DNA from: Lamellibrachia columna | Taxonomy: Eukaryota > Annelida > Polychaeta > Sabellida > Siboglinidae | DNA: 64,000 nt | NCBI GenBank assembly: GCA_963662155.1 | Contig: OY759274.1 | Span: 48,829,577-48,893,576, forward strand | Direction of reading: 5' to 3' | Shown here: positions 22,571 to 56,275 of the stretch, one piece after another | How the letters are laid out: the number at the start of each line of letters is the position of its first letter | Position numbering within the stretch: the first letter of the stretch is position 1 | Position numbers and translations under genes: made by a program | The notes under the pieces: model-generated | The model's input: only the letters and a program-made list of their open reading frames with translations | What the model was told of the DNA's origin: nothing | The model's database searches: none

Positions 22571-22599
22571 GAGTTAATGCTGATTCCTCAAATGGTTCA

Positions 22600-28681: not shown

Positions 28682-28690
28682 TATGTAGAG

Positions 28691-28790: not shown

Positions 28791-29852
28791 GACATGTTTA
28801 TTTGTTGACTTTGTATCACTTGCTCCATTTTGTCATTTTATAAATTAAGTTATTGACACAGAAAAATGTTGTGACATAGAGCAGCAAGTGCAATCAAATC
28901 ACCCTTGAATAACTCCCCTTAAGAAACAATGAGGCAGGTATTATGACAAAATGATGTGACCAGTTGTCGTAATTAATTGACATTTTAAGAATTAAGTAAT
29001 GCTTTGATTTTTTATTTGGCAATGTTCTAAGTTCGAGCATGCGACCTTTTCCAGTTGGTATGTTAATAAGCTATTTGTTGCGCAGTAATTTGTAATAGTT
29101 TCATAAATTTGTTACTCACTAATTTGGGAGAAAAGATAATTAGACAGAACAGTGATATTTCAGCTGCAGTATGTAAAGTTTTGTGCACAGTGCAAATACG
29201 GTGGTCATAAGACTTGTCCAACATTGTCATTCTGAAAGTTGAAATTCGTAAAATATCGAGTTTAAGGCTGAATTTTTCTGAAGATATAGTAACTACATTC
29301 CTATTGAACTAAGAAGTCATTACAAGTATCCCTGGCAGTATACAGTAGCACTTTGGAGCTTGTCCTATAAAATAACAATTTGAAATACAGACTGTTAAAA
29401 TCACTCTCAGAAATAAAAATAAAGTAACAAAATTAATGTTTGCACACTCTGTACATACATTATCCTTCTCATTGTCATTCTTTAATTTTATGATGCACAT
29501 TTGTACGAATATATCTAGACATTCAGCAAATTTAAGCTCAGTAGTTGAGGCACCTGAAAATATAACAAGTGCGTTTAACCCTTAGCTTAGTTTTTATGCA
29601 AAGTTGTTCAGATATAACCATTTGCTAATTTGTTAAAATGTGAGGACATTCTGAGACATCACGTTTTTTAATTTCCTGAAAATTGGTTGATTTAACAAGG
29701 AATTAACTTACTGGGTATGAGAGCTGCAGACTGATTGCATGGCTGTCGCAATAACAAGTGATGCTATTGGTCACACACTCCCTTTTCTCATAATAAAACA
29801 CTACTCCATTGTCACTTGCTGCTTTATGCTGTGTCATCTTCCTCGTTAAGCA
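28791..29852. other. AT-rich DNA, no gene
   Basis: Nothing recognised. The phrase cacttgctccattttgtcat near 28818 recurs as cacttgctcccttttgtcat near 31243, on the other side of the LINE, so the two flanks may have been one duplicated stretch. Confidence 0.45.
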
Positions 29853-31147: not shown

Positions 31148-31370
31148 TGTAGAAAATATGCCATCTAAAAGGTTTTATTATGTTAAAATATGGCTTTCGG
31201 TCCCATCATTATGATAGTTCCATCATTGTGATGGCAAAAATATCACTTGCTCCCTTTTGTCATTTCACGATAGTATGTTCCTTGATAATTTATACTCTTC
31301 ATCGCAATTTGCATTTTGTGGTAAGAAAATTGTCTTATTTTCAGAAATGATTGCTGTCATGCAGTGATCA
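31148..31370. other. Short unassigned stretch
   Basis: No coding or repeat signal recognised other than the shared phrase with 28.8 kb. Confidence 0.4.
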
Positions 31371-31833
31371 GTAGTTTTTCTTTTAATAAGAAAAATATTT
31401 AAATAAGAAAATGTTTCTTATTCCAAGAAAAAGTCTTTCAGAAGGTTTTTCTTGTTTTCAGAAAAATATTCTTACTAACGTGAAACATCCAAAATGATTA
31501 CAAGAAAAATATTTCTATTAAATTGAAGAAAACATTTCTTGATTTACAAATTTTCTCGTGTGGTTCCCTAGAAAATAATTTAAGAAAATGTTCTTGCTTT
31601 TTTCTTGATTTAAGAAAATGTTTTTCTTATTTCAGAAAAAAATACATTTCTTAGATAAGACAACTTTTCTTGGATAAAGAAGAAAATATTTCTATAGCCT
31701 TCTCTTGAATTTAGAAACTATTTTCTTAAGCCAATGAAATGTTTTTATAAAATTTTCTTAAATCACGAAAGTAATTTTCTTACGTGGCTCGCTAGACAAA
31801 TATTCTTGTTTTAAGTTTTTTTTTTATTAAAAC
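31371..31833. repeat. Right subterminal AAGAAAA/TTTTCTT-rich region
   Basis: Dense, mutually inverted blocks of aagaaaa and ttttctt spaced 15-30 bp, mirroring 22322-22570. It ends in the right terminal inverted repeat at 31834-31855. Confidence 0.75.
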
Positions 31834-31855
31834 AAGAAAATAATTTTTAGCAGTG

Positions 31856-34373
31856 TAGCTATAAAATGTTGTGGACTCCATCTATCATGTGAAAATGTTG
31901 TGACCTCGAACTCTGATTGGTAAATACTGTTTGCTACTTCCCTCTTGAGTAAATGCTCTGTGTTCCATCTCTCATGAATATATGCTGTGGACTCCATCTC
32001 TCACGGGTAAATGCTGTGGCCTCCAACTCTCATAAGTAAATGCTGTGTACTCCATCTCTCAACAATAAAATCTGTGGAACCCATATCTTGAGATTCAATG
32101 CTTTGGACTGCATGAGCCGAGAGAAAATGCTGTGGAATCCACCTCTGTTGTGAAACTGTTGTTAACTCCAACTCAAATGCTGTGGGCTCCATCTTTCATA
32201 AGGAAATACCGCGTACTGCATCTCTTCAGAGTAAAAGCTACGTAATCCATCTCTCATGAGTATATACAGGGCACTCCATCTCTCAAGTATAAATGCTGTG
32301 TATTTCGAGTCAATGCTGTGGACTCCATATCTCGTAAGTGCTATTGACTCCATCTCTCCTTAGTAAATGTTGTGGACTAGTCATAAAGAAGAAGGGGAAA
32401 CATAAATCGACGATCGGTATATTTATGTAAATGTTGTGGACTCCATATTTTGTGAGTAAATGCTGTGGTTTCCATCTCTTCTGACTAAATGCTGTTTACT
32501 CTACGTCTTTTCCTTTGGATGCCATCTCTTGAGCGTCAATGCTGTGAACTCCATGGGTCGTGATAAAATGCCGTGAACTCTCAAGAGTAAATGTATACTC
32601 CATCTCCCATATCAAAATATCGTGAACTCGAAATCTTGCGAGAATATACTATTTAAGCAAGAGTAAATACTATGGACTCTATATATCAAGAGTAAATGCT
32701 GTGGACTCCATATCTTGGGAGTCAATGCTGTGTAGTCTAAATCTCGTAAGTGCTGTGGAATAGTGATGGAGAAGAAGGGGGAACAAAAATCAATGACTGG
32801 TATCATTGCCAGCCTCATTTCAGATTACAGGCAAAAGGAGAAGAGCAACATTTGCATATCTCATGTGTAAATGCGACGGACACCATATGTTGTGAGTAAA
32901 TGCTCTGCGTTCCGTCTCCTATGAGTAAATGATGTGGAGTTCACCACTCATTAGTAAATGTTGTGAACTGCATCTCTAGTGAGCAAATAATGTGAAATCC
33001 ATCTCTCATAAGTTAATGCCGTGTACTCCGTCTCTCATGAGTAAATGCCATGTACTCCTTCTCTCAAGAGTAAATGCTGTGTACTCCATCTATCATGAGT
33101 AAATGTTGTGAACTGCAAATCTCATGACTAAATGCTATGTACGGGCTACAGGGAAAATGAGGAGACCAACAATTGCATATCTCATTTGTAAATGCTGTGG
33201 ACACCATATGTTTTCAGTAAATGCTGTCGGTCCCGTCTCTTCTGGGTAAATGCTGTGGAGTTTTCCTCTCATGAGTAAATGCATTGGCCGCCATCTCTGC
33301 ACTGTCAATGGTGTGGACTCCATGTGTAGTGATACAACGCTGTGGACTCCATCTCTGATGTGAAAATATTGTGAATTCCAACTCTCATTGGTAAATACTG
33401 TGCTCCTTCTCTCATGATAAATGCTGTATGCTCCATCTCTCAATACTAAATGGACTCCATCTCTCAAAAATATATGTTATGGACCCCAGCTCTCATGTGA
33501 AAATGCTCCATATGTTGTGAGTAAATGTTGTGGACTCCACCTCTCTTGAGTAATTGCTTTGGACTCCACCTCTTTTGTGAAATTGTTGCTAATTCCAACT
33601 CTAAAGGGTAAATGTTGTGGGCTACATCTCTCAGAAGGAATTCTTGCGTACTCCATCTCTCAAAAGTAAATGCTACGAAATCCATCTCTCTTGAGTATTT
33701 ACAGTGTATTCCATCTCTCAAGAGAAATTGCTGTGTTTTCTATATGTCGGGAGTCAATGCTGTGGAATTCATATCTCTTAAATGCTGTGGACTCCTCCTC
33801 TCCTTTCTAAATATTGTGTATTAATGGTGAAGATGAAGGGAAATAAAATCGACGAAAAGTATCGATGCCAGTTCTAATGTGTAAATTGTGTAGACTCCAT
33901 ATGTTGTCAGTATACGTTGTGGACTCCACTTCTCATGAGTAACTGTTTTGGACATCTCTTGAGAGTGAATACTGTGGACGCCATGTGTCGTGGACGCCAT
34001 CTGTAGAACCCATCTCTTGAGAGTAAACCCTTTGGACTGCATCAGTCATGACAAAATGCTGTTGACGCCATCTGTCATGAATATATGCCGTGGACTCCAT
34101 CTCTCACGGGTAAATGCTGTGGCCTCCAACTCTCGTGAATAAATTCTATGTACCCCACCTCTCTTGTGAAAATGCTATCTCCAACTCTAATGGGTAAATG
34201 TTGTAGGCTCCATCTCTCATAAGGAATTCTCGCGTACTCCATATCTCAAGAGTAAATGCTACGAAATCCATATCTTGGGAGTCAATGCTGTGGACTCCAT
34301 ATCTCGTAAATGCTGCGGTGGACTCCTCCACTCTTTTGTAAATGTTGTGAGTACATGTGTATATGGGTATATG
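31856..34373. repeat. 29-bp satellite, block 2
   Basis: Resumes immediately after the TA at 31856-31857. Diverged 29-bp units with spacer segments near 32376-32415, 32760-32860, 33135-33180 and 33820-33880, of the form gatgaagaag, ggtatcgatgccag and acagggaaaa. Unit order is not obviously higher-order here. Confidence 0.93.
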
Positions 34374-35272
34374 TTTTAACAAGATTTAACAAAATTGCAA
34401 CCCCAAACAACAAGTTCCAGATGGTAAGTGGACAAGGAAGCCATTGACTTATCGAGAGTCGAACACTGTCAACTCTATTTTTAAACATATTCACAATACT
34501 AGCATTAACACAATGATTTTGTAGTTTGTTCCATTCATTTATCACTCTCTGTGAGAAAGAGTACTTTCTCATGTCCAACCTACACAGCTCCTTAACTAAT
34601 GCTGCTTTGTGTCCTCTGGTTCTACTGCCTTCTATAAGTTTGAAGAACATACATGTATTCCTGTCAACATTCTCATAACCATTCACTATTTTAAACAATT
34701 ATATTTGGTCTCCTCTTAGTCTCCTGGTCTCTAGTGTTGTCAAACCACATTGTAATAAGCGACTTTCGTAACTAAGGTCTCTCAATTCTGGAATAATTTT
34801 AGTTGCTCTTCGTTTATTCTTTCTAGCTTGTCTATGTCCTTTTTACGATATTGCCTCCATGCTTCAATACAATATTCCAAATGTGGTCTAACTATTGCTT
34901 TGTATAGGGGTACAATTAGCTGTTTCTCCTTATACATGATAGTTCTCATAATTAGCCCTAGAATTTAATTTCCTTTCGAAGCAGCAATCCCACGTTGCTC
35001 TGAAACTTTCATGGCAGCACTAAATGTTACTCCTAAGTCCTTCTCTTGTGTGGTTCTAAATAGTACAGCATCCCCCATTTTATATTCTTCGTCCATGTGT
35101 CCATGTCCTGTGCGTATTCATTTTCCCTTCCCAAAATGTAATAACATTTGCAATTTGTTTGACCATTTAACTAATTTATCTAGATCATCCTGTAAACTTT
35201 GTTTCCTGTGTATCATTAGTAACCTTTCTGAATACTGTTGTGTCATCTGCAAATTTGAGTACTGTTGATATG

Positions 35273-35352
<80 letters not shown>

Positions 35353-35748
35353 GTATAGGGCCTAATACTGAATCCTATGGTACCGCACTCAAAACAGATT
35401 TCCAATTTGAAATCTCACCATCTACTATTACTCTCTGTTTTCTGAGTGGAAGCCAGTTTTCTATACAGTTGATTACATCATTACCTATGCCATGGGCTTT
35501 TAGTTTAAATAACAATCTTTGATGTGGCACTTTATCCAAAGCTTTCTGAAAATCTAAGTAGAAAAAATTTACTGGTGCCCCGTCATCTACACACTTTATA
35601 ATTTCTTCAAAAAAACATAAGAGATTAGTTAGACATGACCTTGCTTTTAGGAACCCATGTTGAGATTTATTTATTAATTTATGTTTTACAAAGAATTCCA
35701 CCATGTGTTCTCTAATTAACATTTTGAGTAATTTACATAGAACTGATG
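34374..35748 (-). mobile_element. CR1/L2-like LINE copy C inserted in the satellite
   Basis: The 3' end at 34374 has the tandem AACAAGATTT tail. The minus strand contains HKLINKSQHGFLKARSCLTN, YLDFQKALDKVPHQRL, RQRVIVDGEISNWKSVLSAV and, at the end, a diverged NGYENVDRNTCMF region. RT is interrupted by a 70-bp TA run. Satellite continues on both sides. The insertion is younger than the local array expansion, or at least has not been copied with it. Confidence 0.9.
35275..35344. repeat. (AT)35 microsatellite inside LINE copy C
   Basis: Seventy bases of perfect AT. It stands where copy B encodes LFLIYINDL with the codons ttattcttaatttatatcaa. Confidence 0.97.
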
Positions 35749-38700
35749 TTATGTTGTGGACTCCGTCCCTCATGAATAAACACCACGTTCTCCATCTCCC
35801 ACTAGTAAATGCTGTGTACTCCATATCTCAAGAATATATGCTGTGGAAGTCATATCTAATTAGTATACGCAGTGTATTGCATCTCTCAAGAATAAATGTT
35901 GTGTATACAACCTCTAATGAGTAAATGTTGTGGACTCCATCTCTCACGGGTAAATGTTGTGAAACCCATCTCTCATTCGTAAATTATGTTTGCTACATCT
36001 CTCATGAGTATATGCTATGGACACCATCTCTGATGAGTAAATGCTGTGAATTGCATATCTCATGTGTAAATGCTGTAGACTTCATATCTCGTCAGTAAAA
36101 GCTTTGAACTCCATCCATTTAGAGTCTATGCTGTGGGCTCCATCTATATTATCTAATTTTTTTTAACTCCATTTCTTTTTAATAAAAGTTATTCACTCCA
36201 TCTCTCACGAGGGTAAATGCTATGGATTCCATCTCTTACGAGAGTAAATCCTATGGACTCCATCTGTCATAAATAAATGCCTTGTACTCCATCTGTCATT
36301 GGGTAAATGCTTTGAACTTCATCACTTAAGAGAAAATGCTGTGGATTCCATCGCTCATGACAAAATGTCATACTTCGATCTCTGAGGAGTAAATGCTGTG
36401 TACTCGATTACTCATGAGTATATGTTGTAGGACCGTGGACTCCTTATTTTTTTCAGTAAGTGTGGACACCATCTCTCACAAGTAAATGCTGTGTATCTCA
36501 TCTCTTATGAGTATATGTCGTGTACTTCTCTGAAGAGTAAATGGTGCTTAATCCATCTACCAAGAATAAATGGTGTGGATACCATAACTAATGTGTAAAT
36601 ATTTTGTACTTCATCTATCTTGAGAAGATATTGTGGACTCCATATCTCATGCTTAAATGCTGTGTACTGGCTACACAAAAAGGAGGATAGCAACAATAGC
36701 ATCTCTAATGTGGAAATGCTGTGGACTCTTTTATCAAGAGTAAATAATGTATAGTCCATATCTCGTCAATAAAAGCTGTGGAACCCATATATTGAGAGTC
36801 AAAACTTTGGACTGCATCAATCATGATAAAATGCTGTGGACGCCATCTTTCAAGAATATATGCAGTGGACTCCACATCTCACGGGTAAATGCTGTTGCCT
36901 ATAACTCTCTTGAATATGCTATATTACCCGTTTATCTTGATAAAATGTTGTTAGCTCCAACTCTGATGTGCAAATGTTGTAGGCTCCATCTCTCACAAGT
37001 AATTCTCGTGTACTCCATCTCTCAAGAGTAAATGCTATGAAATCCATCTCTCATGAGTATATACAGTGCATTCCATCTCTCAAGAGTAAATGGTGTGTAT
37101 TCCATATCTTGGGAATCAATGTTGTGGAATCCATATCTCGTAAGTGCTGTGGACTCCACCTCTCCTTTGTAAATGTTGTGGACTAGTGATGAAGGAAAAG
37201 GGGAAAACAATCGATGAAAAGTATCGATGCCAGCTCTCATGAGTAAATTATGTAGACTCCATATGTTGTGATTAAATGTTGTGGACTTCATCTCTCATGA
37301 GTAAATGCTGCTTAATCCACCTCCCAAGAATAAATGCTTTGGACACCATATCTAATGTGTAAATGTTTGGTACTTCATCTCTCTTGAGAAGATATTGTGG
37401 ACTCCATCTCTCATGAGTATATGCTGTGTACGGGTTACAGGGAATAGGTGGAGAACAACAATAGCATCTATCATTTGGAAATTATGTGGATTTCTTCTTT
37501 CAAGAGTAAACAATGTATACTCCATATCTCGTCAATAAACGCTTTGGAAAGCCATATCTTGAGAGTCAAAACTTTGGAATGCATCAGTCATGATAAAATG
37601 CTGTGGACGCCATCTCTCAAGAATATATGCAGTATACTCCATATATCACGGGTAAATGTTGTGGCCTCTAACACTCGTGAATAACTGCTATGTACCCCAA
37701 CTATCTTGTGAAAATGTTATTAGTTAAATCACTAATGAATAAATGTTGTAGGCTCCATCTCTCACAAGTAATTCTCTCGTACTCCATCTCTCAAGAGTAA
37801 ATGCTACGAAATCCATCTATCATGAGTATATACAGTGCACTCCATCTCTCAAGAGTAAATGCTGTGTATTCCATATCTTGGGAGTCAATGTTGTGGACTC
37901 TCGTAAGTGCTGTGGACTCCTCTTCTCCTTCGTAAATGTTGTGGACTAGTGATGAAGAAGAAGGGGAAAAAATCGATGAACAGTATCGATGGCAGCTCTC
38001 ATGAATAAATTATGTAGACTCCATATGTTGTGATTAAATGTTGTGGACTCCACCTCTCATGATTAATGGTTAATACTGTGGACGCCATCTGTCGGGAGAT
38101 AATTTTGTGGACTCAATCTCTCACGTGAAAATGTTTCGAACTCCAACTCTCATGTACTATGTACTCCACGTATCATGAGTAATTGCTATGGACGCCTTCT
38201 TTCATGAGTAAATGTTGTTGGCTCCGTCTCTACTTAGTAAATAGTGTGGACTAGTGATGAAGAAGAAGGGGAAACAAAAATATATGACCGGTATCGTTGC
38301 CAGCCTCACCCCGGACTACAGGGAAAGGAAGGAGCACAACAATTGCATCTCTCATGTGTAAATGCTGTGGACTCCATCTCTCGTCAGGAAAAGCTGCGGA
38401 CTCCATCCCTTCAGCGTCTATGCTGTGTACTCCATCTGTATTAAATACATTTTGTGAACTCCATTTCTTATTAGTAAAAGTTGTTCACTCCATCTCTCAC
38501 GTGTGTAAATGCTATGGACTCCATCTCTCACTAGAGTAAATCCTATGGAGTCCATCTGTCATAAATAAATGCCTTGTACTCCATCTGTCATTGTCATTCC
38601 ATCACTCATGAGAAAATGTCATGTACTCGATCTCTGAGTAGTAAATACTGTGTACTCGATTTCTCGTGAATATATGTTGTGGACTCCGTCTCTCATGAGT

Positions 38701-40269
38701 AAATACCATGTTCTCCGTCTCCCATTAGTAAATACTGTGTACTCCATCTCTCAAAAGCATATGCTGTGGAAGCCATCTCTAATGAGTATGTGCTGTGTAT
38801 GCCAACTCTCAAGAATAAATGCTGTGTATACCATCTCTAATTAGTAATTGTTGTGGACACCATCTCTCATAAGTAAATGCTGTGAATTGCACCTCTCAAA
38901 AGGAAATGTTGTGGACGCAGTCTCTAAAAAATAAATGCCGTATTCTCAACCTCTCATGAGTTACTGATTTGAACTCTCTTGAGAGTTAATATTGTGGACG
39001 CCATATGTAGGGAGAGAATGCTGTGGACTCCATCTCTCATGTGAAAATGTTGTGAACTCCAACACAAATGCTGTGGACTGATTCACTTATGTGGAGATGT
39101 TTTGAACTCCAACTATCATGTAGTAAGTACTCAGTCTCTCAAGAGTAAATGCAGTGGACGCCTTCTCTCGTGAGTAAATGTTGCTGGCTCTGTCTCTACT
39201 TAGTTAATAGTTTGGCCTAGTGTGGAAGAAGAAGGGGAAACAAAAATCAATGACCGGTATCGTTGCCAGCCTCAACACGAGCGCCAGGGAAAGGAAGGAG
39301 CGCAACTGTAGCATCTCACAAGTATAAATGCTGCGTATACCATCTCTAATGAGTAAATGTTGTGGGCTCCATCTCTCATCGGTAAATGTTCTGTACCCAA
39401 TCTTTCATTCGTAAATTCTGATGACTACATCTCTCATGAGTATATGATGTGGACACCATCTCTCATGAGTAAATGCTGTGAACTGCATCTCTCAAGAGTA
39501 AATGTTGTGTATCACATCTCTTATGTGTATATGTCGTGTAATCCTTCTCTCATGAATAAATGCTGCTTAATCCAACTACTAATAATAAATGCTGTAGACA
39601 CCATATCTATTGTGTAAATGTTTTGTACTTCATCTCTCTTGAGAAGATATTGTGGACTACATCTCTCATGAGTAAATGCTGTGTAAGGGCTACAGGGAAA
39701 AGAAGGAGAGCAACAATAGCATCTATCATGTGGAAATTCGGTGGACTTCTTCTTTCAAAAGTAAATAATGTATACTCCATTTCTCGACAATACAAGCTGT
39801 GGAACACATATATTGAGAGTCAAAATTTTAGACTGCACGAGTCGTGACAAAATACTGTGGACGCCATCACTCAAGAGTATATGCAACGGAAACTATCTCC
39901 CACGGGTAAATGCTGTGGCCTCTAACTCTTGAATAAATGCTATATTACCAATCTTTCTTGTGAAAATTATGTTAGCTCCAACTCTAATGAGAATATGTTG
40001 TGGACTCCGTCTCTCATGAGTAAATACCATGTTCTCAATCTCCAATTGGTAAATGCTGTGTACTTCATGTCTCAAGAACATATGCTGTGGAAACCATCTC
40101 TAATGAGTATATGTTGTGTATACCAACTCTCAAGAATAAATGCTATGTAAACCATCTCTAATTAGTAAACGTTGTGGACGCAATCTCTCAAAAATAAATG
40201 CCGTATTCTCCATCTCTCATGAGTAAATGCTGTGGATTCCATCTCTAATGAGTAAATGTTATGTGTTCG

Positions 40270-43200
40270 ATCTTTTATAAGTAAATTCTGTGTACTCTGT
40301 CTCTCATGAGTATATTTTGTGGAATCCATCTTTCAACAAAAATTGCTGTGGACTCCATATATTGTCTGTAACTGTGGACTCCATCTCTAATGAGTAAATG
40401 CTGTGTACCTCATCTCTCATGAGTACATGTGGTGTACTCCTTCTCTCATGAGTAAATGCTGCGTAATCCATCTATCAATAATAAATGCTGTGATCTCCAT
40501 ATATCCTGTGTAAATGTCTCTTGAGAATATATTGTGAACTCCATCTATTATGAGTAAGTGCTGTTTACGGGCTACAGGGAAAAGGGGGAGACCAAATATA
40601 GCATGTATCGTGTGTAAATGCTGTGAATCCTTCTATCAAGAGTAAATAATGTGTTCTCCATATCTTGTCATTAAAAGCCGTGGAACCCATTTCTAGAGAG
40701 TCAATAGTTAATGCAATGAAATCCATCTCTCATGAGTATATACAGCTGAACTCCATCTCTTAAGAGTAAATGCTGTGTACATCCTATCTTGGGAGTCTCT
40801 CATGTGTAAATGCTGCGGACTCCATCTCTCGTCAGTAAAACGATGGACACCATCTCTTGAGAGTGTCTGCTGTGGACTCTATCTATATTAAGTAAATTAT
40901 GTACACTACATTTCTTATTAGTAAATTTGTTTCACTCCATCTCTCATTAGAGTAAATGCTACGGACTCCGTCTCTCAATAGAGTATATGCTATGGACTCC
41001 TTCTGTCATAAATAAATTACTTCTACTCCATCTGTCATTGGTTAAATGCTGTGGACTCCATCGCTCATGAGAAAATGTCTTGAGTAAATACCATATTCTC
41101 CATCTCTCGTTAGTAAATGCGGTGTACTCCACCTCTTAAAAGTAAATGCTGTGTATACCATCTCTAATGAGAAAATGCTGTGGATTCCATCCCTCTTGGG
41201 TAAATGTTGTGATCTCCATCTCTTATTCCAGAATTCTGTTAGCTGCGTCTCTCATGAGTATAAGCTGTGGACAACATCACTCATTAGTATTTTGTGTCAA
41301 CTCCATCTTTCATAAGTAAATGCTGTCTAATCCATGTCTAAAAATTAAATTTTGTGTAAACAATATCTTATCAGTAAATGCTGTGGACTCCATGTCTTGT
41401 GAGTAAATGGTGTGGACACAATATCTCGTAAGTAATTGCGATGGACTTAACCTCTCATGAGTAATTGCTGTGGACTAGTGAAGAAAATCTTTCATTAGTA
41501 AATGCTGTGTACTCCATCTCTCATTAGTAAATACAGTGTTCTCTATTTATCGTGAGTAAATTTTGCGCACTCAATCTCTTATGACTACATATCTTGAACT
41601 CCATCTCTCATTGGTAATTGCAGTTTACTACAACTGTCATGAGTATATATTGTGGACTCCATCTTTCTTCAGTAAATGCTGTACGTCATCTCTCTTGAGA
41701 ATATATTGTGAACGCCTGTGCTGTATACGGGCTACAGGGAAAAGGAGGAGACTAAAAATATAGCATATATCGTGTGTAAATGCTGTGGACCCTTCATTCA
41801 AGAGTAAATAATGTGTTCTCCATATATCGTCATTAAAAGCCGTGGAACCCATTTCCAGAGAGTCAATAGTAAATGCAACAAAATCCATCTCTTATGAGTA
41901 TATACAGTGTACTCCATCTCTTAAGAGTAAATGCTGTGTACATCCTATATTGGGAGTCAATGCTGAGGCTCCTTAACTCGAAAGTGCTGTGGACTCCTCC
42001 TCTCCTTCATTAATGTTGTGGACTAGTGATGAAGAAGATGGGGAAAACAAAATCGACAAAAAGTATCGATGCCAGCTCTGATATGTAAATTTTGTTATGA
42101 GTAAATTTTGTGGACTCCAACTCTCACGAGTAACTGCTTTGGACTCCATATTTCTACAGTAAATGCTTTGGACTCCATCTCTTGTGAGTAAATGTTGTGG
42201 ACTCCATATCTCACAAGTAACTGCTTTGGACTCCATCTCTTGATATTGAATACTGTGTACTCCATTTCTCAATAGTAAACTCTGCTTACTCCTTATCTCA
42301 TCAGTACACCTCGTGTACTCCTTCTCTCATGAGTAAATGCTGTGGGTTTCACCTTTTTCAGTAAATGCTGTGGAAGCCACCTCTCTTACGTAAATTATGT
42401 GTACTCTGTCTCTCATGAGTATATTTTGTGGAGTCCATCTTTCAACAAAAATTTGCTTTGGACTCCATATATTGTCAGTAACTGTGGACTCCATCTCTAA
42501 TGAGTAAATGCTGTGTACCCCATCTCTCATGAGTATATGTTGTGTACTCCTTCTCTCATGAGTAAATGCTGCGTAATCCATCTAACAATAATAAATGCTG
42601 TGATCTCCATATCTCCTGTGTAAATGTCATGTACGTCATCTCTCTTGAGAATATATTGTGAACTCCACCTCTTACGAGTAAGTGCTGTTTACGGGCTACA
42701 GGAAAAAAGGAGGAGACCAAATATAGCATGTATCGTGTGTAAATACTGTGAATCCTTCTATCAAGAGTAAATAATGTGTCCTCCATATCTTGTCATTAAA
42801 AGCCGTGGAACCCATTTCTAGAGAGTCAATAGTAAATGCAACGAAATCCATCTCTCATGAGTATATACAGTGCACTCCATATGTTAAGAGTAAATGCTGT
42901 GTACACCCTATCTTGGGAGTCTCTCATGTGTAAATGCTGCGGACTCCATCTCTCGTCAGTATAACGAAGGACACCATCTCTTGAGAGTGTCTGCTGCGGA
43001 CTCTATCTATATTAAGTAAATTATGTACACTCCATTTCTTAATATTAAAATTTTGTCACTCCATCTCTCATAAGAGTAAATGTTATGTATTCCGTCTCTC
43101 AATAGAGTAAATGCTATGGACTCCATCTGTCATAAATAAATGATTTCTAATCCATCTGTCATTGGTTAAATGCTGTGGACTCCATCGCTCATGAGAAAAT

Positions 43201-46200
43201 GTCTTGAGTAAATACCATATTCTCCATCTCTCGTTAGTAAATGCGGTGTACTCCACCTCTTAAGAGTAAATGCTGTGTATACCATCTCTAATGAGAAAAT
43301 GCTGTGGATTCCATCCCTCTTGGGTAAATGTTGTACTCTCCATCTCTTATTCCAGAATTATGTTTGCTGCGTCTCTCATGAGTATAAGCTGTGGACAACA
43401 TCACTCATTAGTATTTTGTGTCAACTCCATCTTTCATAAGTAAATGCTGTCTAATCCATGTCTAAAAATTAAATTTTGTGTACACAATATCTTATCAATA
43501 AATGCTGTGGACTCCATGTCTTGTGAGTAAATGGTGTGGACACCATATCTCGTAAGTAATTGCGATGGACTTAACCTCTAATGAGTAATTGCTGTGGACT
43601 AGTGAAGAAAATCTTTCATTAGTAAATGCTGTGTACTCCATCTCTCATTAGTAAATACAGTGTTCTCTATTTATCGTGAGTAATTTTTGCGCACTCCGTC
43701 TCTTATGACTACATATCTTGAACTCAATCTCTCATTGGTAATAGCAGTTTACTACAACTGTCATGAGTATATATTGTGGACTCCATCTTTCTACAGTAAA
43801 TGCTGTACGTCATCTCTCTTGAGAATATATTGTGAACGCCTGTGCTGTATACGGGCTACAGGGAAAAGGGGGAGACCAAATATAGCATATATCATGAGTA
43901 AATGCTGTGGACCCTTCATTCAAGAGTAAATAATGTGTTCTCCATATATCGTCAATAAAAGCCGTGGAACCCATTTCCAGAGAGTCAATAATAAATGCAA
44001 CAAAATCCTTCTCTCATGAGTATATACAGTGTACTCCATCTCTTAAGAGTAAATGCTGTGTACATCCTATATTGGGAGTCAATGCTGTGGCTCCATAACT
44101 CGAAAGTGCTGTGGACTCCTCCTCTCCTTCATTAATGTTTTGGACTAGCGAAGAAGAAGATGGGGAAAACAAAATCGACAAAAAGTATCGATGCCAGCTC
44201 TGATATGTAATTTTTTTTATGAGTAAATGTTATGAGTAAATTTTGTGGACTCCAACTCTCATGAGTAACTGCTTTGGACTCCATATTTCTACAGTAAATG
44301 CTTTGGACTCCATCTCTTGTGAGTAAATGTTGTGGACTCCATATCTCACAAGTAACTGCTTTGGACTCCACCTCTTGATATTGAATACTGTGTACTCCAT
44401 TTCTCAATAGTAAACACTGCTTACTCCTTATCTCATCAGTACACCTCGTATACTCCTTCTCTCATGAATAAATGATGTGGGTTTCACCTCTTTTGAGTAA
44501 ATGCTGTGGAGGCCACCTCTCTTAAGTAAATTATGTGTACTCTGTCTCTCATGAGTATATTTTGTGGATTCCATTTTTCAAAAAAAATTGCTGTGGACTC
44601 CATATATTGTCAGAAACTGTGGACTCCATCTCTAATGAGTAAATGCTGTGTACCCCATCTCTCATGGGTATATGTGGTGTACTCCTTCTCTCATGAGTAA
44701 ATGCTGCTTAATCCATCTACCAATAATAAATGCTGTGATCTCCATATCTCCTGTGTAAATGTCATGTACGTCATCTCTCTTGAGAATATATTGTGAACTC
44801 CATCTCTTATGAGTAAGTGCTGTTTACGGGCTACAGGGAAAAGGAGGAGATCAAATATAGCATGTATCGTGTGTAAATGCTGTGAATCCTTATATCAAGA
44901 GTAAATAATGTGTTCTCCATATCTTGTCATTAAAAGCCGTGGAACCCATTTCTAGAGAGTCAATAGTAAATGCAACGAAATCCATCTCTCATGAGTATAT
45001 ACAGTGCACTCCATCTCTTAAGAGTAAATGCTGTGTACATCCTATCTTGGGAGTCTCTCATGTGTAAATGCTGCGGACTCCATCTCTCGTCAGTAAAACG
45101 ATGGAAACCATCTCTTGAGAGTGTCTGCTGTGGACTCTATCTATATTAAGTAAATTATGTACACTCCATTTCTTATTAGTAAAATTTGTTCACTCCATCT
45201 CTCATAAGAGTAAATGCTATGGACTCCGTCTCTCAATAGAGTAAATGCTATGGACTCCATCTGTCATAAATAAATGACTTCTACTCCATCTGTCATTGGT
45301 TAAATGCTGTGGACTCCATCGCTCATGAGAAAATGTATTGAGTAAATACCATATCCTCCATCTCTTGTGAGTAAATGCGGTGTACTCCACCTCTCAAGAG
45401 TAAATGATGTGTATACCATCTCTAATGAGAAAATGCTGTGGATTCCATCCCTCTTGGGTAAATGTTGTGATCTCCATCTCTCATTCCAGAATTATGTTTG
45501 CTGCGTCTCTCATGAGTATAAGCTGCGTACACCATCACTCATTAGTAAATGGTGTCAAATCCATCTTTCATGAGTAAATGCTGTGTAATCCATGTCTAAA
45601 AATTAAATTTTGTGTACACAATATCTTATCAGTAAATGCTGTGGACTTTATGTCTTGTGAGTAAATGGTGTGGACACCATATCTCGAAAGTAATTGCGAT
45701 GGACTTAACCTCTAATGAGTAATTGCTGTGGACTAGTGAAGAAAATCTTTCATTAGTAAATGCTGTGTACTCCATCTCTCATTAGTAAATACAGTGTTCT
45801 CTATTTATCGTGAGTAAATTTTGCGCACTCCATCTCTTATGACTACATATCTTGAACTCCATCTCTCATTGGTAATTGCAGTTTACTACAACTGTCATGA
45901 GTATATATTGTGGACTCCATCTTTCTACAGTAAATGCTGTACGTCATCTCTCTTGAGAATATATTGTGAACGCCTGTGCTGTATACGGGCTACAGGGAAA
46001 AGGAGGAGACCAAATATAGCATTTATCGTGTGTAAATGCTGTGGACCCTTCATTCAAGAGTAAATAATGTGTTCTCCATATATCGTCATTAAAGCCGTGC
46101 AACCCATTTCCAGAGAGTCTATAGTAAATGCAACAAAATCCATCTGTCTTGAGTATATACAGTGTACTCCATCTCTTAAGAGTAAATGCTGTGTACATCC

Positions 46201-49200
46201 TATATTGGGAGTCAATGCTGTGGCTCCATAACTCGAAAGTGCTGTGGACTCCTCCTCTCCTTCATTAATGTTGTGGACTAGTGAAGAAGAAGATGGGGAA
46301 AACAAAATCGACAAAAAGTATCGATGCCAGCTCTGATATGTAAATTTTTTTATGAGTAAATGTTATGAGTAAATTTTGTGGACTCCAACTCTCATGAGTA
46401 ACTGCTTTGAACTCCATATTTCTACAGTAAATGCTTTCGACTCCATCTCTTGTGAGTAAATGTTGTGGACTCCATATCTCACAAGTAAATGCTTTGGACT
46501 CCATCTCTTGATATTGAATACTGTGTACTCCATCTTTCAATAGTAAACTCTGCTTACTCCTTATCTCATCAGTACATCTCGTGTACTCCTTCTCTCATGA
46601 GTAAATGCTGTGGGTTTCACCTCTTTTGAGTATATGCTGTGGAGGCCACCTCTCTTAAGTAAATTATGTGTACTCTGTCTCTCATGAGTATATTTTGTGG
46701 AATCCATCTTTCAAACAAAATTGCTGTGGACTCCATATATTGTCTGTAACTGTGGACTTCATCTCTAATGAGTAAATGCTGTGTACCCCATCTCTCATGA
46801 GTATATGTGGTGTACTCCTTCTCTCATGAGTAAATGCTGCGTAATCCATCTACCAATAATAAATGCTGTGATCTCCATATCTCCTGTGTAAATGTCATGT
46901 ACGTCATCTCTCTTGAGAATATATTGTGAACTCCATCTCTTATGAGTAAGTGGTGCTGTTTACGGGCTACAGGGAAAAGGAGGAGACCAAATATAGCATG
47001 TATCTTGTGTAAATGCTGTGAATCCTTCTATCAAGAGTATATAATGTTTTCTCCATATCTTGTCATTAAAAGCCGTGGAATCCATTTCTAGAGAGTCAAT
47101 AGTAAATGCAACGAAATCCATCAATCATGAGTATATACAGTGCACTCCATCTCTTAAGAGTAAATGCTGTGTACATCCTATCTTGGGGGTCTCCCATGTG
47201 TAAATGCTGCGGACTCCATCTCTCGTCAGTAAAACGATGGACACCATCTCTTGAGAGTGTCTGCTGTGGACTCTATCTATATTTAGTAAATTATGTACTC
47301 TCCATTTCTTATTAGTAAAATTTGTTCACTCCATCTCTCATAAGAGTAAATGCTATGGACTCCGTCTCTCAATAGAGTAAATGCTATGGACTCCATCTGT
47401 CATAAATAAATGACTTCTACTCCATCTGTCATTGGTTAAATGCTGTGGACTCCATCGCTCATGAGAAAATGTCTTGAGTAAATACCATATTCTCCATCTC
47501 TCGAGAGTAAATGCGGTGTACTCCACCTCTCAAGAGTAAATGATGTGTATACCATTTCTAATGAGAAAATGCTGTGGATTCCATCGCTCTTTGGTAAATG
47601 TTGTGATCTCCATCTCTCATTCCAGATTTCTGTTTGCTGCGTCTCTCATGATTATAAGCTGTGGACACCATCACTCATTAATAAATGGTGTCAACTCCAT
47701 CTTTCATGAGTAAATGCTGTCTAATCCATGTCTAAAAATAAAATTTTGTGTACACAATATCCTATCAGTAAATGCTGTGGACTCCATGTCTTGTGAGTAA
47801 ATGGTGTGGGCTAGTGAAGAAAATCTTTCATTAGTAAATGCTGTGTACTCCATCTCTCATTAGTAAATACAGTGTTCTCTATTTATCGTGAGTAAATTTT
47901 GCGCACTCCATCTCTTATGACTACATATCTTGAACTCCATCTCTCATTAGTAATTGCAGTTTACTACAACTGTCATGAGTATATATTGTGGACTCCATCT
48001 TTCTTCAGTAAATGCTGTACATCATCTCTCTTGAGAATATATTGTGAACGCCTGTGCTGTATACGGGCTACAGGGAAAAGGAGGAGACCAAATATAGCAT
48101 ATATCGTGTGAAAATGCTGTGGACCCTTCATTCAAGAGTAAATAATGTGTTCTCCATATATCGTCATTAAAAGCCGTGGAACCCATTTCTAGAGAGTCAA
48201 TAGTTAATGCAATGAAATCCATCTCTCATGAGTATATACAGTGCACTCCATCTCTTAAGAGTAAATGCTGTGTACATCCTATCTTGGGAGTCTCTCATGT
48301 GTAAATGCTGCGGACTCCATCTCTCGTCAGTAAAACGATGGACACCATCTCTTGAGAGTGTCTGCTGTGGACTCTATCTATATTAAGTAAATTATGTACA
48401 CTCCATTTCTTATTAGTAAAATTTGTTCACTCCATCTCTCATTAGAGTAAATGCTATGGACTCCGTCTCTCAATAGAGTAAATGCTATGGACTCCATCTG
48501 TCATAAATAAATGACTTCTACTCCATCTGTCATTGGTTAAATGCTGTGGACTCCATCGCTCATGAGAAAATGTCTTGAGTAAATACCATATTCTCCATCT
48601 CTCGTTAGTAAATGCGGTGTACTCCACCTCTTAAAAGTAAATGCTGTGTATACCATCTCTAATGAGAAAATGCTGTGGATTCCATCCCTCTTGGGTAAAT
48701 GTTGTGATCTCCATCTCTTATTCCAGAATTCTGTTAGCTGCGTCTCTCATGAGTATAAGCTGTGGACAACATCACTCATTAGTATTTTGTGTCAACTCCA
48801 TCTTTCATAAGTAAATGCTGTCTAATCCATGTCTAAAAATTAAATTTTGTGTACACAATATCTTATCAGTAAATGCTGTGGACTCCATGTCTTGTGAATA
48901 AATGGTGTGGACACCATATCTCGTAAGTAATTGCGATGGACTTAACCTCTCATGAGTAATTGCTGTGGACTAGTGAAGAAAATCTTTCATTAGTAAATGC
49001 TGTGTACTCCATCTCTCATTAGTAAATACAGTGTTCTCTATTTATCGTGAGTAAATTTTGCGCACTCCATCTCTTATGACTACATATCTTGAACTCCATC
49101 TCTCATTGGTAATTGCAGTTTACTACAACTGTCATGAGTATATATTGTGGACTCCATCTTTCTACAGTAAATGCTGTACGTCATCTTTCTTGAGAATATA

Positions 49201-52200
49201 TTGTGAACGCCTTTGCTGTATACGGGCTACAGGGAAAAGGAGGAGACCAAATATAGCATATATCATGAGTAAATGCTGTGGACCCTTCATTCAAGAGTAA
49301 ATAATGTGTTCTCCATATATCGTCAATAAAAGCCGTGGAACCCATTTCCAGAGAGTCAATAATAAATGCAACAAAATCCTTCTCTCATGAGTATATACAG
49401 TGTACTCCATCTCTTAAGAGTAAATGCTGTGTACATCCTATATTGGGAGTCAATGCTGTGGCTCCATAACTCGAAAGTGCTGTGGACTCCTCCTCTCCTT
49501 CATTAATGTTTTGGACTAGTGAAGAAGAAGATGGGGAAAACAAAATCGACAAAAAGTATCGATGCCAGCTCTGATATGTACATTTTTTTATGAGTAAATG
49601 TTATGAGTAAATTTTGTGGACTCCAACTCTCATGAGTAACTGCTTTGAACTCCATATTTCTACAGTAAATGCTTTCGACTCCATCTCTTGTGAGTAAATG
49701 TTGTGGACTCCATATCTCACAAGTAACTGCTTTGGACTCCACCTCTTGATATTGAATACTGTGTACTCCATCTCTCAATAGTAAACTCTGCTTACTCCTT
49801 ATCTCATCAGTACACCTCGTATACTCCTTCTCTCATGAATAAATGCTGTGGGTTTCACCTCTTTTGAGTAAATGCTGTGGAGGCCACTTCTCTTAAGTAA
49901 ATTATGTGTACTCTGTCTCTCATGAGTATATTTTGTGGATTCCATCTTTCAACAAAAATTGCTGTGGACTCCATATATTGTCAGTAACTGTGGACTCCAT
50001 CTCTAATGAGTAAATGCTGTGTACCCCATCTCTCATGAGTATATGTGGTGTACTCCTTCTCTCATGAGTAAATGCTGCTTAATCCATCTACCAATAATAA
50101 ATGCTGTGGTCTCCATATCTCCTGTGTAAATGTCATGTACGTCATCTCTCTTGAGAATATATTGTGAACTCCATCTCTTATGAGTAAGTGCTGTTTACGG
50201 GCTACAGGGAAAAGGAGGAGATCAAATATAGCATATATCGTGTGTAAATGCTGTGAATCCTTCTATCAAGAGTAAATAATGTGTTCTCCATATCTTGTCA
50301 TTAAAAGCCGTGGAACCCATTTCTAGAGAGTCAATAGTAAATGCAACGAAATCCATCTCTCATGAGTATATACAGTGCACTCCATCTCTTAAGAGTAAAT
50401 GCTGTGTACATCCTATCTTGGGAGTCTCTCATGTGTAAATGCTGCGGACACCATCTCTCGTCAGTAAAACGATGGACACCATCTCTTGAGAGTGTCTGCT
50501 GTGGAATATATCTATATTAAGTAAATTATGTACACTCCATTTCTTATTAGTAAAATTTGTTCACTCCATCTCTCATAAGAGTAAATGCTATGGACTCCGT
50601 CTCTCAATAGAGTAAATGCTATGGACTCCATCTGTCATAAATAAATGACTTCTACTCCATCTGTCATTGGTTAAATGGTGTGGACTCCATCGCTCATGAG
50701 AAAATGTCTTGAGTAAATACCATATTCTCCATCTCTCGTGAGTAAATGCGGTGTACTCCACCTTTCAAGAGTAAATGCTGTGTATACCATCTCTAATGAG
50801 AAAATGCTGTGGATTCCATCCCTCTTGGGTAAATGTTGTGATCTCCATCTCTCATTCCAGAATTCTGTTTGCTGCGTCTCTCATGAGTATAAGCTGGGGA
50901 CACCATCACTCATTTATAAATGGTGTCAACCCCATCTTTCATGAGTAAATGCTGACTAATCCATGTCTAAAAATTAAATTTTGTGTACACAATATCTTGT
51001 CAGTAAATGCTGTGGACTCCATGTCTTGTGAGTAAATGGTGTGGACACCATATCTCGTAAGTAATTGCGATGGACTTAACTTCTCATGAGTAATTGCTGT
51101 GGACTAGTGAAGAAAATCTTTCATTAGTAAATGCTTTGTACTCCATCTCTCATTAGTAAATACAGTGTTCTCTATTTATCGTGTGTAAATTTTGCGCACT
51201 CCCTCTCTTATGACTACATATCTTGAACTCCATCTCTCATTGGTAATTGCAGTTTACTACAACTGTCATGAGTATATATTGTGGACTCCATCTTTCTACA
51301 GTAAATGCTGTACATCATCTCTCTTGAGAATATATTGTGAACGCCTGTGCTGTATACGGGCTACAAGGAAAAGGAGGAGACCAAATATAGCATATATCGT
51401 GTGTAAATGCTGTGGACACTTCATTCAAGAGTAAATAATGTGTTCTCCATATATCGTCATTAAAAGCCGTGGAACCCATTTCCAGAGAGTCAATAGTAAA
51501 TGCAACAAAATCCATCTCTCATGAGTATATACAGTGTACTCCATCTCTTAAGAGTAAATGCTGTGTACATCCTATATTGGGAGTCAATGCTGTGGCTCCA
51601 TACCTCGAAAGTACTGTGGACTCCTCCTCTCATTCATTAATGTTGTGGACTAGTGATGAAGAAGATGGGGAAAACAAAATCGACAAAACGTATCGATGCC
51701 AGCTCTGATATGTAATTTTTTTCATGAGTAAATGTTATGAGTAAATTTTGTGGACTCCAACTCTCATGAGTAACTGCTTTGGACTCCATATTTCTACAGT
51801 AAATGCTTTGGACTGCATCTCTTGTGAGTACATGTTGTGGACTCCATATCTCACAAGTAACTGCTTTGGACTCCATCTCTTGATATTGAATACTGTGTAC
51901 TCCATCTCTCAATAGTAAACTCTGCTTACTCCTTATCTCATCACTACACCTCGTGTACTCCTTCTCTCATGAGTAAATGCTGTGGGTTTCACCTCTTTTG
52001 AATAAATGCTGTGGAGGCCACCTCTCTTAAGTAAATTATGTGTACTCTGTGTCTCATGAGTATATTTTGTGGAATCCATCTTTCAACAAAAATTGCTGTG
52101 GACTCCATATATTGTCAGTAACAGTGGACTCCATCTCTAATGAGTAAATGCTGTGTACCCCATCTCTCATGAGTATATGTGGTGTACTCCTTCTCTCATG

Positions 52201-54155
52201 AGTAAATGCTGCGTAATCCATCTACCAATAATAAATGCTGTGATCTCCATATCTCCTGTGTAAATGTCATGTACGTCATCTCTCTTGAGAATATATTGTG
52301 ATCTCCATCTCTTATGAGTAAGTGCTGTTTTCGGGCTACAGGGAAAAGGAGGAGACCAAATATAGCATGTATCGTGTGTAAATGCTGTGAATCCTTCTAT
52401 CAAGAGTAAATAATGTGTTCTCCATATCTTGTCATTAAAAGCCGTGGAACCCATTTCTAGAGAGTCAATAGTAAATGCAACGAAATCCATCTCTCATGAG
52501 TATATACAGTGCACTCCATATCTTAAGAGTAAATGCTGTGTACATCCTATCTTGGGAGTCTCTCATGTGTAAATGCTGCGGACTCCATCTCTCGTCAGTA
52601 AAACGATGGACACCATCTCTTGAGAGTGTCTGCTGTGATCTCTATCTATATTAAGTAAATTATGTACACTCCATTTCTTATTAGTAAAATTTGTTCACTC
52701 CATCTCTCATAAGAGTAAATGCTATGGACTCCGTCTCTCAATAGAGTAAATGCTATGGACTCCATCTGTCATAAATAAATGACTTCTACTCCATCTGTCA
52801 TTGGTTAAATGCTGTGGACTCCATCGCTCATGAGAAAATGTCTTGAGTAAATACCATATTCTCCATCTCTCGTGAGTAAATGCGGTGTACTCCACCTCTC
52901 AAGAGTAAATGCTGTGTATACCATCTCTAATGAGAAAATGCTGTGGATTCCATCCCTCTTGGGTAAATGTTGTGATCTCCATCTCTCATTCCAGAATTCT
53001 GTTTGCTGCGTCTCTCATGAGTATAAGCTGTGGACACCATCACTCATTAGTAAATTGTGTCAACTCCATCTTTCATGAGTAAATGCTGTCTAATCCATGT
53101 CTAAAAATAAAATTTTGTGTACACAATATCTTATCAGTAAATGCTGTGGACTCCATGTCTTGTGGGTAAATGGTGTGGACACCATATCTCGTAAGTAATT
53201 GCGGTGGACTTAACCTCTCATGAGTAATTGCTGTGGACTAGTGAAGAAAATCTTTCATTAGTAAATGCTGTGTACTCCATCTCTCATTAGTAAATACATT
53301 GTTCTCTATTTATCGTGAGTAAATTTTGCGCACTCCATCTCTTATTACTACATATCTTGAACTCCATCTCTCATTGGTAATTGCAGTTTACTACAACTGT
53401 CATGAGTATATATTGTGGACTCCATCTTTCTACAGTAAATGCTGTACGTCATCTCTCTTGAGAATATATTGTGAACGCCTGTGCTGTATACTGGCTACAG
53501 GGAAAAGGAGGAGACCAAATATAACATATATCGTGTATAAATGCTGTGGACCCTTCATTCAAGAGTAAATAATGTGTTCTCCATATATCGTCATTAAAAG
53601 CCGTGGAACCCATTTCCAGAGAGTCAATAGTAAATGCAACAAAATCCAACTCTCATGAGTATATTCAGTGTACTCCATCTCTTAAGAGTAAATGCTGTGT
53701 ACATCCTATATTGGGAGTCAATTCTGTGGCTCCATACCACGAAAGTGCTGTGGACTCCTCCTCTCCTTCATTAATGTTGTGGACTAGTGTTGAAGAAGAT
53801 GGGGAAAACAAAATCGACAAAAAGTATCTATGCCAGCTCTGATATGTAATTTTTTTTATGAGTAAATGTTATGAGTAAATTTTGTGGACTCCAACTCTCA
53901 TGAGTAACTGCTTTGAACTCCATATTTCTACAGTAAATGCTTTCGACTCCATCTCTTGTGAGTAAATGTTGTGGACTCCATATCTCACAAGTAACTGCTT
54001 TGGACTCCATCTCTTGATATTGAATACTGTGTACTCCATCTCTCAATAGTAAACTCTGCTTACTCCTTATCTCATCAGTACACCTCGTGTACTCCTTCTC
54101 TCATGAGTAAATGCTGTGGGTTTCACCTCTTTTGAGTAAATGCTGTGGAGGCCAC
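40270..54155. repeat. 2,134-bp higher-order repeat of the 29-bp satellite, about 6.5 units
   Basis: A marker (ttttgcgcactc followed by tcttatgactacatatcttg) starts at 41563, 43687, 45821, 47899, 49058, 51192 and 53326. Intervals are 2124, 2134, 2078, 1159, 2134 and 2134 bp. Neighbouring copies are nearly identical by eye. Each unit carries two paralogous spacer blocks of gggctacagggaaaaggagg type and one tagtgaagaagaagatgggg block. The 2078 interval is explained by a 56-bp deletion near 47815. Confidence 0.93.
47899..49057. repeat. Recombined short higher-order unit (1,159 bp)
   Basis: Follows the normal unit up to ccgtggaacccatttc near 48190, then jumps to the second spacer block of the unit (tagagagtcaatagttaatg). 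About 975 bp are missing. The two spacer blocks share over 100 bp, giving the substrate for unequal crossing-over. Confidence 0.85.
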
Positions 54156-56275
54156 CTCTCTTGAGTAAATGCTGTGGACCCCATCCCGCATGAGTCAATA
54201 TTGTCGAATTTATCTCTCATAAGAAAAAACCGTTTACTCCATGTATGTATATAAATGTTGTGTACTCCATCTATCATGATTAAATTCATTGGAATCCATG
54301 TGAAAATATTGTCAACTCCAAATCTCGTGACAAAATACTACCTACTCCGTCTCTCATGATTAAATGCAGTGGACTCAATACCTCATAAGTAAATGCCTTC
54401 TACTCCATATATCATGAGTAAATACCGTGTCCTCCATCTCTCATGAGTAAATACTGAGTGCCCAATCTCTCAATAGTACATTCAGTGGAATACATCTCTT
54501 ATGAGTCAATTCTGTTATCTCCATCTCTCAAAATTAAATGCTGTGTACCCCATATCTCAAATGAGTAAATATTGTAAATTCCATCTCTCATTCGTAAGTT
54601 ATGTTGGTGCATCTCTCATTAGTATATGCTGTGGACACCATATCTCATGAGTAAATGCTGTGAAACCCATCTCCCAAGACTGAAGGCTGTGGACCCCATC
54701 TCCCAATATTAAATGTTATATACACAATCTGTAATGTGTAACTGGTGTGGACTCTATTTCTAATGAGTAAAGCAGTGGACTCAGTAAATTCTGTGTACTC
54801 CATCTCTAATGAATAATTTATATGATATCCAACTCTAAAGAGTAAATATCATGTACTCGATCTTCTATAAGTAAATGTTGTGTACTCGGGTATATTTTGT
54901 GGACTCCATCTCTCAAAAGCAAATGCTGTGGACTCCATATCTTGAAAGTCAATGCTATGGACTCCATATATTTTCAGTAAGAGTGGACGTCATCTATTGA
55001 TAGTCACTGCTTTCGACTGCATTAGTCGTTAGAAAATGCTGTGGACTCTATCTCTTGGAAATCAATGCTATTGTCGCCATATATTTTCATTAAGTGTGGA
55101 CTCCATATCTCATGAGTAAATGCTGTGTATACCATCTCTCCTGTGTCAATTCTGTAGAATCCCCCTGTTTTGAGTAAATACTGGCCATTCCATCTCTTAT
55201 GAGTAAATGCTGTGGGCACCTCCTGTCATGAGTAAATGCCGGGGATTACATCTCTCCAGAGTAAATGCTGTGTACCCCATTTTCAGTAATTGCAGTGGAC
55301 TCCATTTCTCGTGAGTAAATGTTGTGTGCTCCATCTCTCATTAGTAAATGCTGTGTAATTAATCTCTCATTAGTAAATACCGTGTTTTCCATTTCTCACG
55401 AGTAAATTGTGTGGACTCCTTCACTCATTGGTAAATGCAATTTACTCCAACTGTCATGAGTATATGTTGTGGACTCCATCTTTCTAGAGTAAATGCTGCG
55501 GACTCCATCTCTTGTGAGTAAATGTTGTGGACTCCGTATCTCACGAGTAAATGCTTTGGATTCCATCTCTTGACATATAATACTGTGTACTCCATCTCTC
55601 AAGAGTAAACGCTGTTTACTCCGTATGGGTTTCACTTCTTTTGAGTAAATGCTGTGGAGGCCACCTCTCATGAGTAAATGCGTTGGACCCCATCCCTCAT
55701 GAGTCAGTGCTGTGGACTTCATCTCTCAAGAGAAAAAACCATGTACTCCATGTATCTTGAGTAAATGTTGTGTACTCCATCTATCATCAGTAAATCCATT
55801 TGAAAATATTGTTAACTCCAAATCTCGTGACAAAATAGTATATGCTGTGGACACAACATCTCATGAGTAAATGCTGTGAAACCCATTTCTCTAGAGTAAA
55901 GGCTGTGGACGCCATCTCTTATGAGTAAATACTGTAATCTCCATATCTGATCAGTAAATGCTGTGTAGTCCATCTCTCAAGATTAAATGTTGTGTACACA
56001 ATCACTAATTTCTGATGAGTAAATGCAGTGGACTCCATATCACATCAGTACATTCTGTGTACTCCATCTCTCATGAGTAATTGATGTGAAATCCATCTCT
56101 TATGAGTAAATATCATATACTCGATCTTTTATCAGTTAATATTGTGTACTCGGTCTTTCATAAATATATTTTGTTGACTCCATCTCTCAAGAGAAAATGC
56201 TGTAGACTCTATATCTTGGAAGTCAATGCTATGGACTCCATATCTTTTCAGTAAATATGTGTATGTTTGTTGTAG

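Follow-up and report, generated by a model that had tools for sequence, protein, structure and literature searches.

The window analysed here is a stretch of 64,000 nt from the siboglinid annelid Lamellibrachia columna (contig OY759274.1, C14 below; 48,829,577–48,893,576), and all positions are window positions unless a contig is named. Between 20.69 and 56.26 kb it carries an array of a 29-bp satellite, both bounds of which lie inside the window; without two insertions the array amounts to 24,614 bp. Part of this array is a block organized as a higher-order repeat (HOR) with a unit of 2,134 bp. Such an HOR of the 29-bp satellite had been proposed in a sequence-only reading of this DNA, and it is borne out by seven units whose sub-units are 94.7–98.5% identical. 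This unit consists of two sub-units, A (~1160 bp) and B (~975 bp), which were cut at a box reading CGGGCTACAGGGAAAAGGAGGAG in most copies. The order of sub-units is B0 (end), A1, B1, A2, B2, A3, B3, A4, A5, B5, A6, B6, A7, B7 (start), as follows.

40279..54162, + strand: HOR block, seven tandem 2,134-bp units with the fourth B lost; it ends in the same unit phase on both sides
40279..40567, + strand: B0, terminal part of B, 14 bp shorter than in the other B copies; left end of the block
40568..41727, + strand: A1, 1160 bp
41728..42691, + strand: B1, 964 bp
42692..43851, + strand: A2
43852..44826, + strand: B2, nearest to B5 (98.5%)
44827..45985, + strand: A3
45986..46962, + strand: B3, 977 bp
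46963..48063, + strand: A4, with a 58-bp (two-monomer) deletion
48064..49222, + strand: A5, starting with a B-type C segment (see below), then A-type; the remainder is nearest to A1 (97.8%)
49223..50197, + strand: B5, nearest to B2
50198..51356, + strand: A6
51357..52331, + strand: B6
52332..53490, + strand: A7
53491..54162, + strand: B7, opening 672 bp of B, stopping at the phase where B0 starts

The marker TTTTGCGCACTC occurs at 41561, 43685, 45819, 47897, 49056, 51190 and 53324 and has no other copy on either strand of the window. These are the seven places reported earlier, each shifted by 2 bp to the left. The copies had been described as mostly exactly 2,134 bp apart, which holds for three of the six gaps (2124, 2134, 2078, 1159, 2134 and 2134 bp in order along the block). 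The same distance is the commonest offset between identical 20-mers at 35.7–56.2 kb (2,747 pairs). One missing B sub-unit explains the 1,159-bp interval; the interval of 2,078 bp contains the 58-bp loss of A4. The block is 13,884 bp long, compared with 14,938 bp for seven full units (7 x 2,134), and the lost B4 together with small deletions explains the gap within a few bases. It lies where the sequence-only reading had placed it, except that its limits move from 40270 and 54155 to 40279 and 54162 once the ends are aligned to complete units; on the contig this corresponds to C14:48,869,855–48,883,738. The reported size of about 74 monomers agrees with 2134/29 = 73.6, with the qualification that the unit additionally contains non-monomer boxes.

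Cutting the array into monomers gave 852 pieces, 475 from the block and 377 from the flanks. Pairwise identity among the flank monomers is 65% on average, in agreement with the earlier description of the flanking satellite as diverged. An all-by-all unit alignment, which had been suggested as a check, gives identities of 94.7–97.8% among A copies and 95.9–98.5% among B copies (B0 excluded). Diverged monomers are thus arranged in units that are far more alike than the monomers and that follow each other head-to-tail in constant register, which defines an HOR. Block monomers and flank monomers are equally far from the 29-bp consensus (78% and 79% identity, respectively), indicating that the block formed by copying a stretch of worn monomers in one piece, without refreshing them.

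The two sub-units are alike over their first ~250 columns (the C segment), with 86–96% identity per 50 columns in A3 and B3; beyond this segment they are different. A5 departs from the other A copies in that B-type states switch to A-type inside the C segment. We read this switch as the B/A crossover that deleted B4, leaving the 1,159-bp interval.

In an alignment with the B copies, the unit begins at AAGTAAATT (40279), next to the left flank, and ends after CTCTT (54162), next to the right flank, at the same phase. The two block ends join different flanks, and the 29-bp register is kept at both. At the inner junction (taken from B5), the left side matches the right flank at 39 of 40 positions and the right side matches the left flank equally well (39/40), compared with 24/40 and 28/40 for the other pairing. 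At the junction point the flanks have an exact AGTAAAT in common and agree at 54 of 80 surrounding bases, which is a monomer-level likeness. Because the ends share a phase and the 29-bp register is kept, the founding breakpoints are still readable. Such ends would result if two monomers at a distance of 2,134 bp had once exchanged out of alignment and the product had then grown in register.

The copies vary at 118 sites in A and 84 in B. Most minority states are private to a single copy (96 of 120 in A, 67 of 86 in B), and no copy is without them: A copies carry 6–23 each, the six long B copies 3–15, and B0 6. Gaps number three in A, of 1, 1 and 58 bp, and seven of 1–14 bp in B, not counting the truncated ends of B0 and B7. 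Assemblers can easily multiply long tandems of near-identical units, and the block could in principle be one or a few units multiplied in this way. Each copy has its own substitutions, though, and 118 and 84 variable sites next to few gaps are unlike indel-heavy read errors; the block ends also join different flanks in register. An assembly artefact is therefore very improbable.

Some states are shared exclusively by particular copies: 11 sites by B2 and B5, five by A1 and A5, and seven more by A1, A2 and A5. Exchanges after the amplification did happen, but they were few. For A from position 226 on, two paralogues on contig C6 (89–93% identical) were available as an outgroup; with sites of more than two states excluded, 66 sites are private derived, 17 are shared derived, four have one copy alone keeping the outgroup state and three are unpolarised. 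In the resulting tree the C6 pair is separated from the seven A copies with a support of 1.000, and the sole well-supported inner group is A1+A2+A5 (0.989). We read this history as one past local amplification followed by independent drift and few exchanges, not as ongoing homogenization. The recent homogenization suggested previously thus holds as far as the few later exchanges go, but not for the bulk of the variation, which is private divergence after a single amplification.

Ongoing concerted evolution would instead keep the units alike continuously. It accounts for the states shared by A1/A5 and by B2/B5 and for the B/A hybrid A5, which place some exchange after the amplification. It is at odds with the ~80% of minority states that are private and present in all copies, and with the A- and B-specific states in the C segment, which are mostly kept separate, A5 excepted. 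Nor do monomers appear to be drawn towards their consensus: with the monomer column taken from majority-base copies, moves towards consensus number 10 against 7.4 expected (P 0.18). A donor-match test for copying from other monomers is weak (P 0.07 overall, 0.03 when restricted to events not directed towards the consensus), and private states are barely clustered: 13 neighbouring pairs lie within 5 bp of each other (9.6 expected) and 27 within 15 bp (27.1 expected). Taken together, we regard continuous turnover as improbable. An apparent monomer-level gene conversion towards the 29-bp consensus (30 events against 10.3 expected; 27 against 9.1 in a second run) was rejected as an alignment artefact.

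Variable sites are evenly spread along the unit (P 0.23 for A, 0.46 for B). No cold spot for variants was found in the unit, the longest invariant runs being 49 (A) and 57 (B) against random expectations of 49 and 55, which speaks against a constrained element inside it. Private changes hit consensus columns (116/1,514) and non-consensus columns (27/351) at the same rate. The differences appear to accumulate as in unconstrained DNA, with no function visible in the sequence.

A functional array, either a centromeric satellite or a repeat belonging to a gene or an antisense protein, would nevertheless have some points in its favour. Hierarchical repeats are known from centromeres, antisense open reading frames (ORFs) in the block reach 117 amino acids (B1), and related ORFs exist in the protein database. 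A frame of 109 amino acids is found in five of the six long B copies; it is truncated in B7, where 90 remain. The changes in this frame comprise two synonymous, 19 non-synonymous and one stop, with 19% of all possible changes being synonymous, and an antisense protein was rejected because of these kinds of change. The sequence-only reading had also placed the block between candidate exons of a gene. This finds no backing in a Pfam scan of 20 ORFs, in which only RVT_1 (reverse transcriptase of a long interspersed nuclear element, LINE) scored above cut-off, in three ORFs, and one more match was weak and below cut-off; short exons could escape such a scan. A 53-bp exon-like stretch at 56276–56328, preceded by AG and followed by GT, was spotted by eye and has no other support. 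Neither an Rfam match at gathering score nor a transfer RNA gene was detected in the window.

As for the centromeric type of architecture claimed previously, the hierarchy is real, but the array is small and bounded, and the block is 0.38 Mb away from the end of C14 (49.3 Mb). Centromeric satellites can extend up to a megabase, a length that these 24.6 kb fall short of. The core motif of the CENP-B box has no match on either strand of the window; a CENP-B box is not required by all centromeres. Minisatellite monomers range from about 10 to 60 bp, and the 29-bp monomer, the 24.6-kb array and its dispersed relatives have the features of a minisatellite. With the absence of a variant cold spot, the pattern of antisense changes and the scarcity of domains, a functional array is extremely improbable.

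The assembly comprises 880 Mb in 30 contigs; among C1–C20, C1–C15 measure 46.6–72.7 Mb and C16–C20 are shorter than 43 kb. A search of the other scaffolds, also suggested earlier, gives a divided answer. Allowing up to 2 mismatches, the 29-bp consensus matches the assembly 1,837 times (0 in the control), and among the matches listed it occurs on 11 contigs, at some places in contig interiors and at others near ends. By comparison, the inner junction of the block is found 5 times (up to 2 mismatches) and an A-specific box 7 times (up to 3 mismatches), all within the block. Counts from the DNA-based genome search are lower bounds, only the best candidates having been scored. Thus, the monomer is common and the block is local.

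Taken together, we conclude that the block is probably a local HOR within a dispersed 29-bp minisatellite, which arose by misaligned unequal exchange, grew in register to seven units and later underwent few exchanges. The starting point would have been an old, worn 29-bp array, in which a shared segment of ~250 bp (C, from box1 on) came to open both A and B. Monomers 2,134 bp apart could then have mispaired in the 29-bp register around AGTAAAT, and an unequal exchange would have doubled the stretch. The resulting long, near-identical tandem would permit in-register exchanges, giving seven copies within a short time. Later exchanges may have removed B4 through a B/A crossover in C and two monomers from A4, and made A5 and B5 similar to A1 and B2, respectively. 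The agent was presumably sister-chromatid or meiotic exchange, with the sharing of C, the doubling and the growth taking place in this order. This account brings together the shared phase of both ends, the change from B- to A-type within A5, the mostly private, unconstrained variation and a junction unique in the assembly. The mechanism is ordinary; its preservation is unusually good.

An unlikely but conceivable alternative is that one misaligned event between monomers ~74 apart made all seven units in a single step, via a circular or re-replicated template, with little turnover afterwards. In the circular version, a 2,134-bp stretch would be excised, copied as a rolling circle and reinserted in register as a concatemer. 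Rolling-circle copying with reinsertion is a proposed route for satellites, according to an excerpt of PMC8122249. Such an origin would yield star-like relations with private states in every copy, and closure of the circle between the same two monomers would produce the identical junction. It demands, however, reinsertion at the exact place and phase, both of which in-register exchange supplies for free, and the B/A switch of A5 shows that exchange was active in the block.

Several points weigh against stepwise growth by unequal exchange followed by mostly independent divergence. The exact homology at the breakpoint is only 7 bp, and replication template switching could therefore also have seeded the block. 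Stepwise growth and a one-step burst are not distinguishable in one assembly. The other shared states, 12 in A and 8 in B, partly contradict each other, which implies either more exchange than described here or repeated mutation. The private share alone is compatible with steady turnover (P 0.16 for A, 0.27 for B), in keeping with concerted evolution. When it is combined with the smallest private count per copy, steady turnover is rejected (simulated P 0.003 for A and 0.03 for B, B0 left out), but this joint statistic was picked after the counts were seen, and A and B are linked and not independent. Finally, private states have a ratio of transitions to transversions of 65:98, compared with 188:172 in six dispersed repeat pairs (P 0.011), a difference that is unexplained; the 65:98 count takes in the B-type states of A5, and six of seven repeat pairs were used, a 44-bp pair being omitted.

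The remaining features of the host array are listed below.

20690..22299, + strand: 29-bp satellite, left piece of the array
22300..31855, no strand assigned: 9.56-kb element with inward inverted ends CACTGC...GCAGTG, TA on both sides and LINE copies inside, inserted in the array
31858..34349, + strand: 29-bp satellite, second piece
34350..35750, - strand: reverse-transcriptase fragment of a LINE, inserted in the array
35751..40278, + strand: diverged 29-bp satellite on the left side of the block; contains older duplications of several monomers
38249..38348, + strand: one of the fuller copies of a ~100-bp non-monomer box (box2 + box1)
54163..56262, + strand: diverged 29-bp satellite right of the block

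Excision of the 9.56-kb element restores the 29-bp register. The same junction between satellite and element is seen in a satellite ORF of another contig (P0139; 85% over 136 amino acids). The LINE fragment may be flanked by an 8-bp target duplication, ATGTTGTG, although these letters also occur within a monomer. The LINE ORF has 7,887 relatives at E <=1e-20 among 7,985 candidates scored. The ~100-bp non-monomer box recurs through the array, whole in the flanks or split into halves in sub-units A and B. After thinning, 22 pairs of 8-monomer stretches in the flanks exceed the maximum of 20 permutations; for example, 36970–37169 and 37739–37932 are 95% identical over 8 monomers. These older multi-monomer duplications indicate that the process that made the block had acted before.

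Outside the array, a 24-bp tandem repeat at 111–898 (81% matches) is better fitted at 72 bp (89%) and represents a second, smaller HOR. Inverted arms at 57634–58237 and 60351–60849, 71–74% alike and ~2 kb apart, possibly belong to a further transposable element.

Related arrays occur on C6, at ~15.7–17.7 kb (~2 kb) and ~25.2–33.5 kb (~8 kb) from its start, on C15 at 29.79–29.80 Mb (~8 kb), and on C1 from base 1. The two C6 arrays have repeats of their own, with 58-bp (two-monomer) offsets in one and offsets of 4.1–4.4 kb in the other. Pieces of C6 at ~18.4–25.2 kb are collinear with 9.8–20.2 kb of the window (9788–20184; 91–96% identity), and the surroundings of the satellite are thus partly duplicated between chromosomes. 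C1, the largest of the 20 contigs sized, opens inside the satellite (1–2300), and its first 100 bases hold no telomere repeat; its array may therefore extend past the assembly. C3, C5 and C11 begin in CCCTAA repeats, and the starts of C4, C9, C10, C13 and C15 share, by eye, one subtelomere-like sequence.

In the protein database, 68 satellite-like ORFs were found (E <=0.01; 1,975 candidates scored), three of which are the window's own; their contigs have 35 different lengths, which further supports a dispersed monomer, although some may come from other species. Exact matches to the monomer were absent from viral contigs (37-base probe) and from prokaryote genomes (29-base probe), in both of which records of or near the window's own genome may be excluded. 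A literature search for three strings of the monomer found none. The phrase '29-bp satellite' occurs in one paper, on Toxoplasma subtelomeres (PMC9498087).

HORs have mostly been studied in centromeres, after many copies and rounds of turnover, and their beginnings are therefore modelled. With seven copies, unlike flanks, a breakpoint phase, rooting paralogues on C6 and unconstrained changes, the block can be read as the start of an HOR. Its low copy number, distinct flanks, readable phase and C6 root make it a usable natural example of HOR birth and of sub-unit loss by crossover. It changes nothing known about centromeres or genes.

Among known systems, the dispersed short arrays of the satellite resemble the satellite-like central repeats of Helentrons in Crassostrea gigas, as described in PMC7492417; here, where no search aimed at Helentron termini was made, no element ends came up other than those of an insertion in the array. 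As with the 3-mer HORs of human NBPF genes (Olduvai triplets), higher-order tandem amplification took place outside centromeres, but the NBPF units, in the excerpts describing them, are ~1.6 kb long and lie in genes, whereas the block is made of non-coding 29-bp monomers. Monomer size, array size and the many dispersed arrays are those of minisatellites, which an excerpt of PMC8122249 describes as euchromatic arrays of 0.5–30 kb. What sets this array apart from them is its long higher-order block, together with the shared box of non-monomer sequence.

The architecture is like that of primate alpha-satellite HORs, in which many diverged monomers form units that are far more alike: ~70% identity within and 97–100% between units, according to the same excerpt (PMC8122249), compared with 65% among flank monomers and 94.7–98.5% among sub-units here. 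Unlike alpha-satellite, the block has a monomer of 29 bp instead of ~171 bp, only seven copies and a dispersed family, and any centromeric role is only putative. The largest HOR unit of primates is said, by the title of PMC11276891, to contain 59 monomers; the unit of the block has ~74, yet is far shorter in bases.

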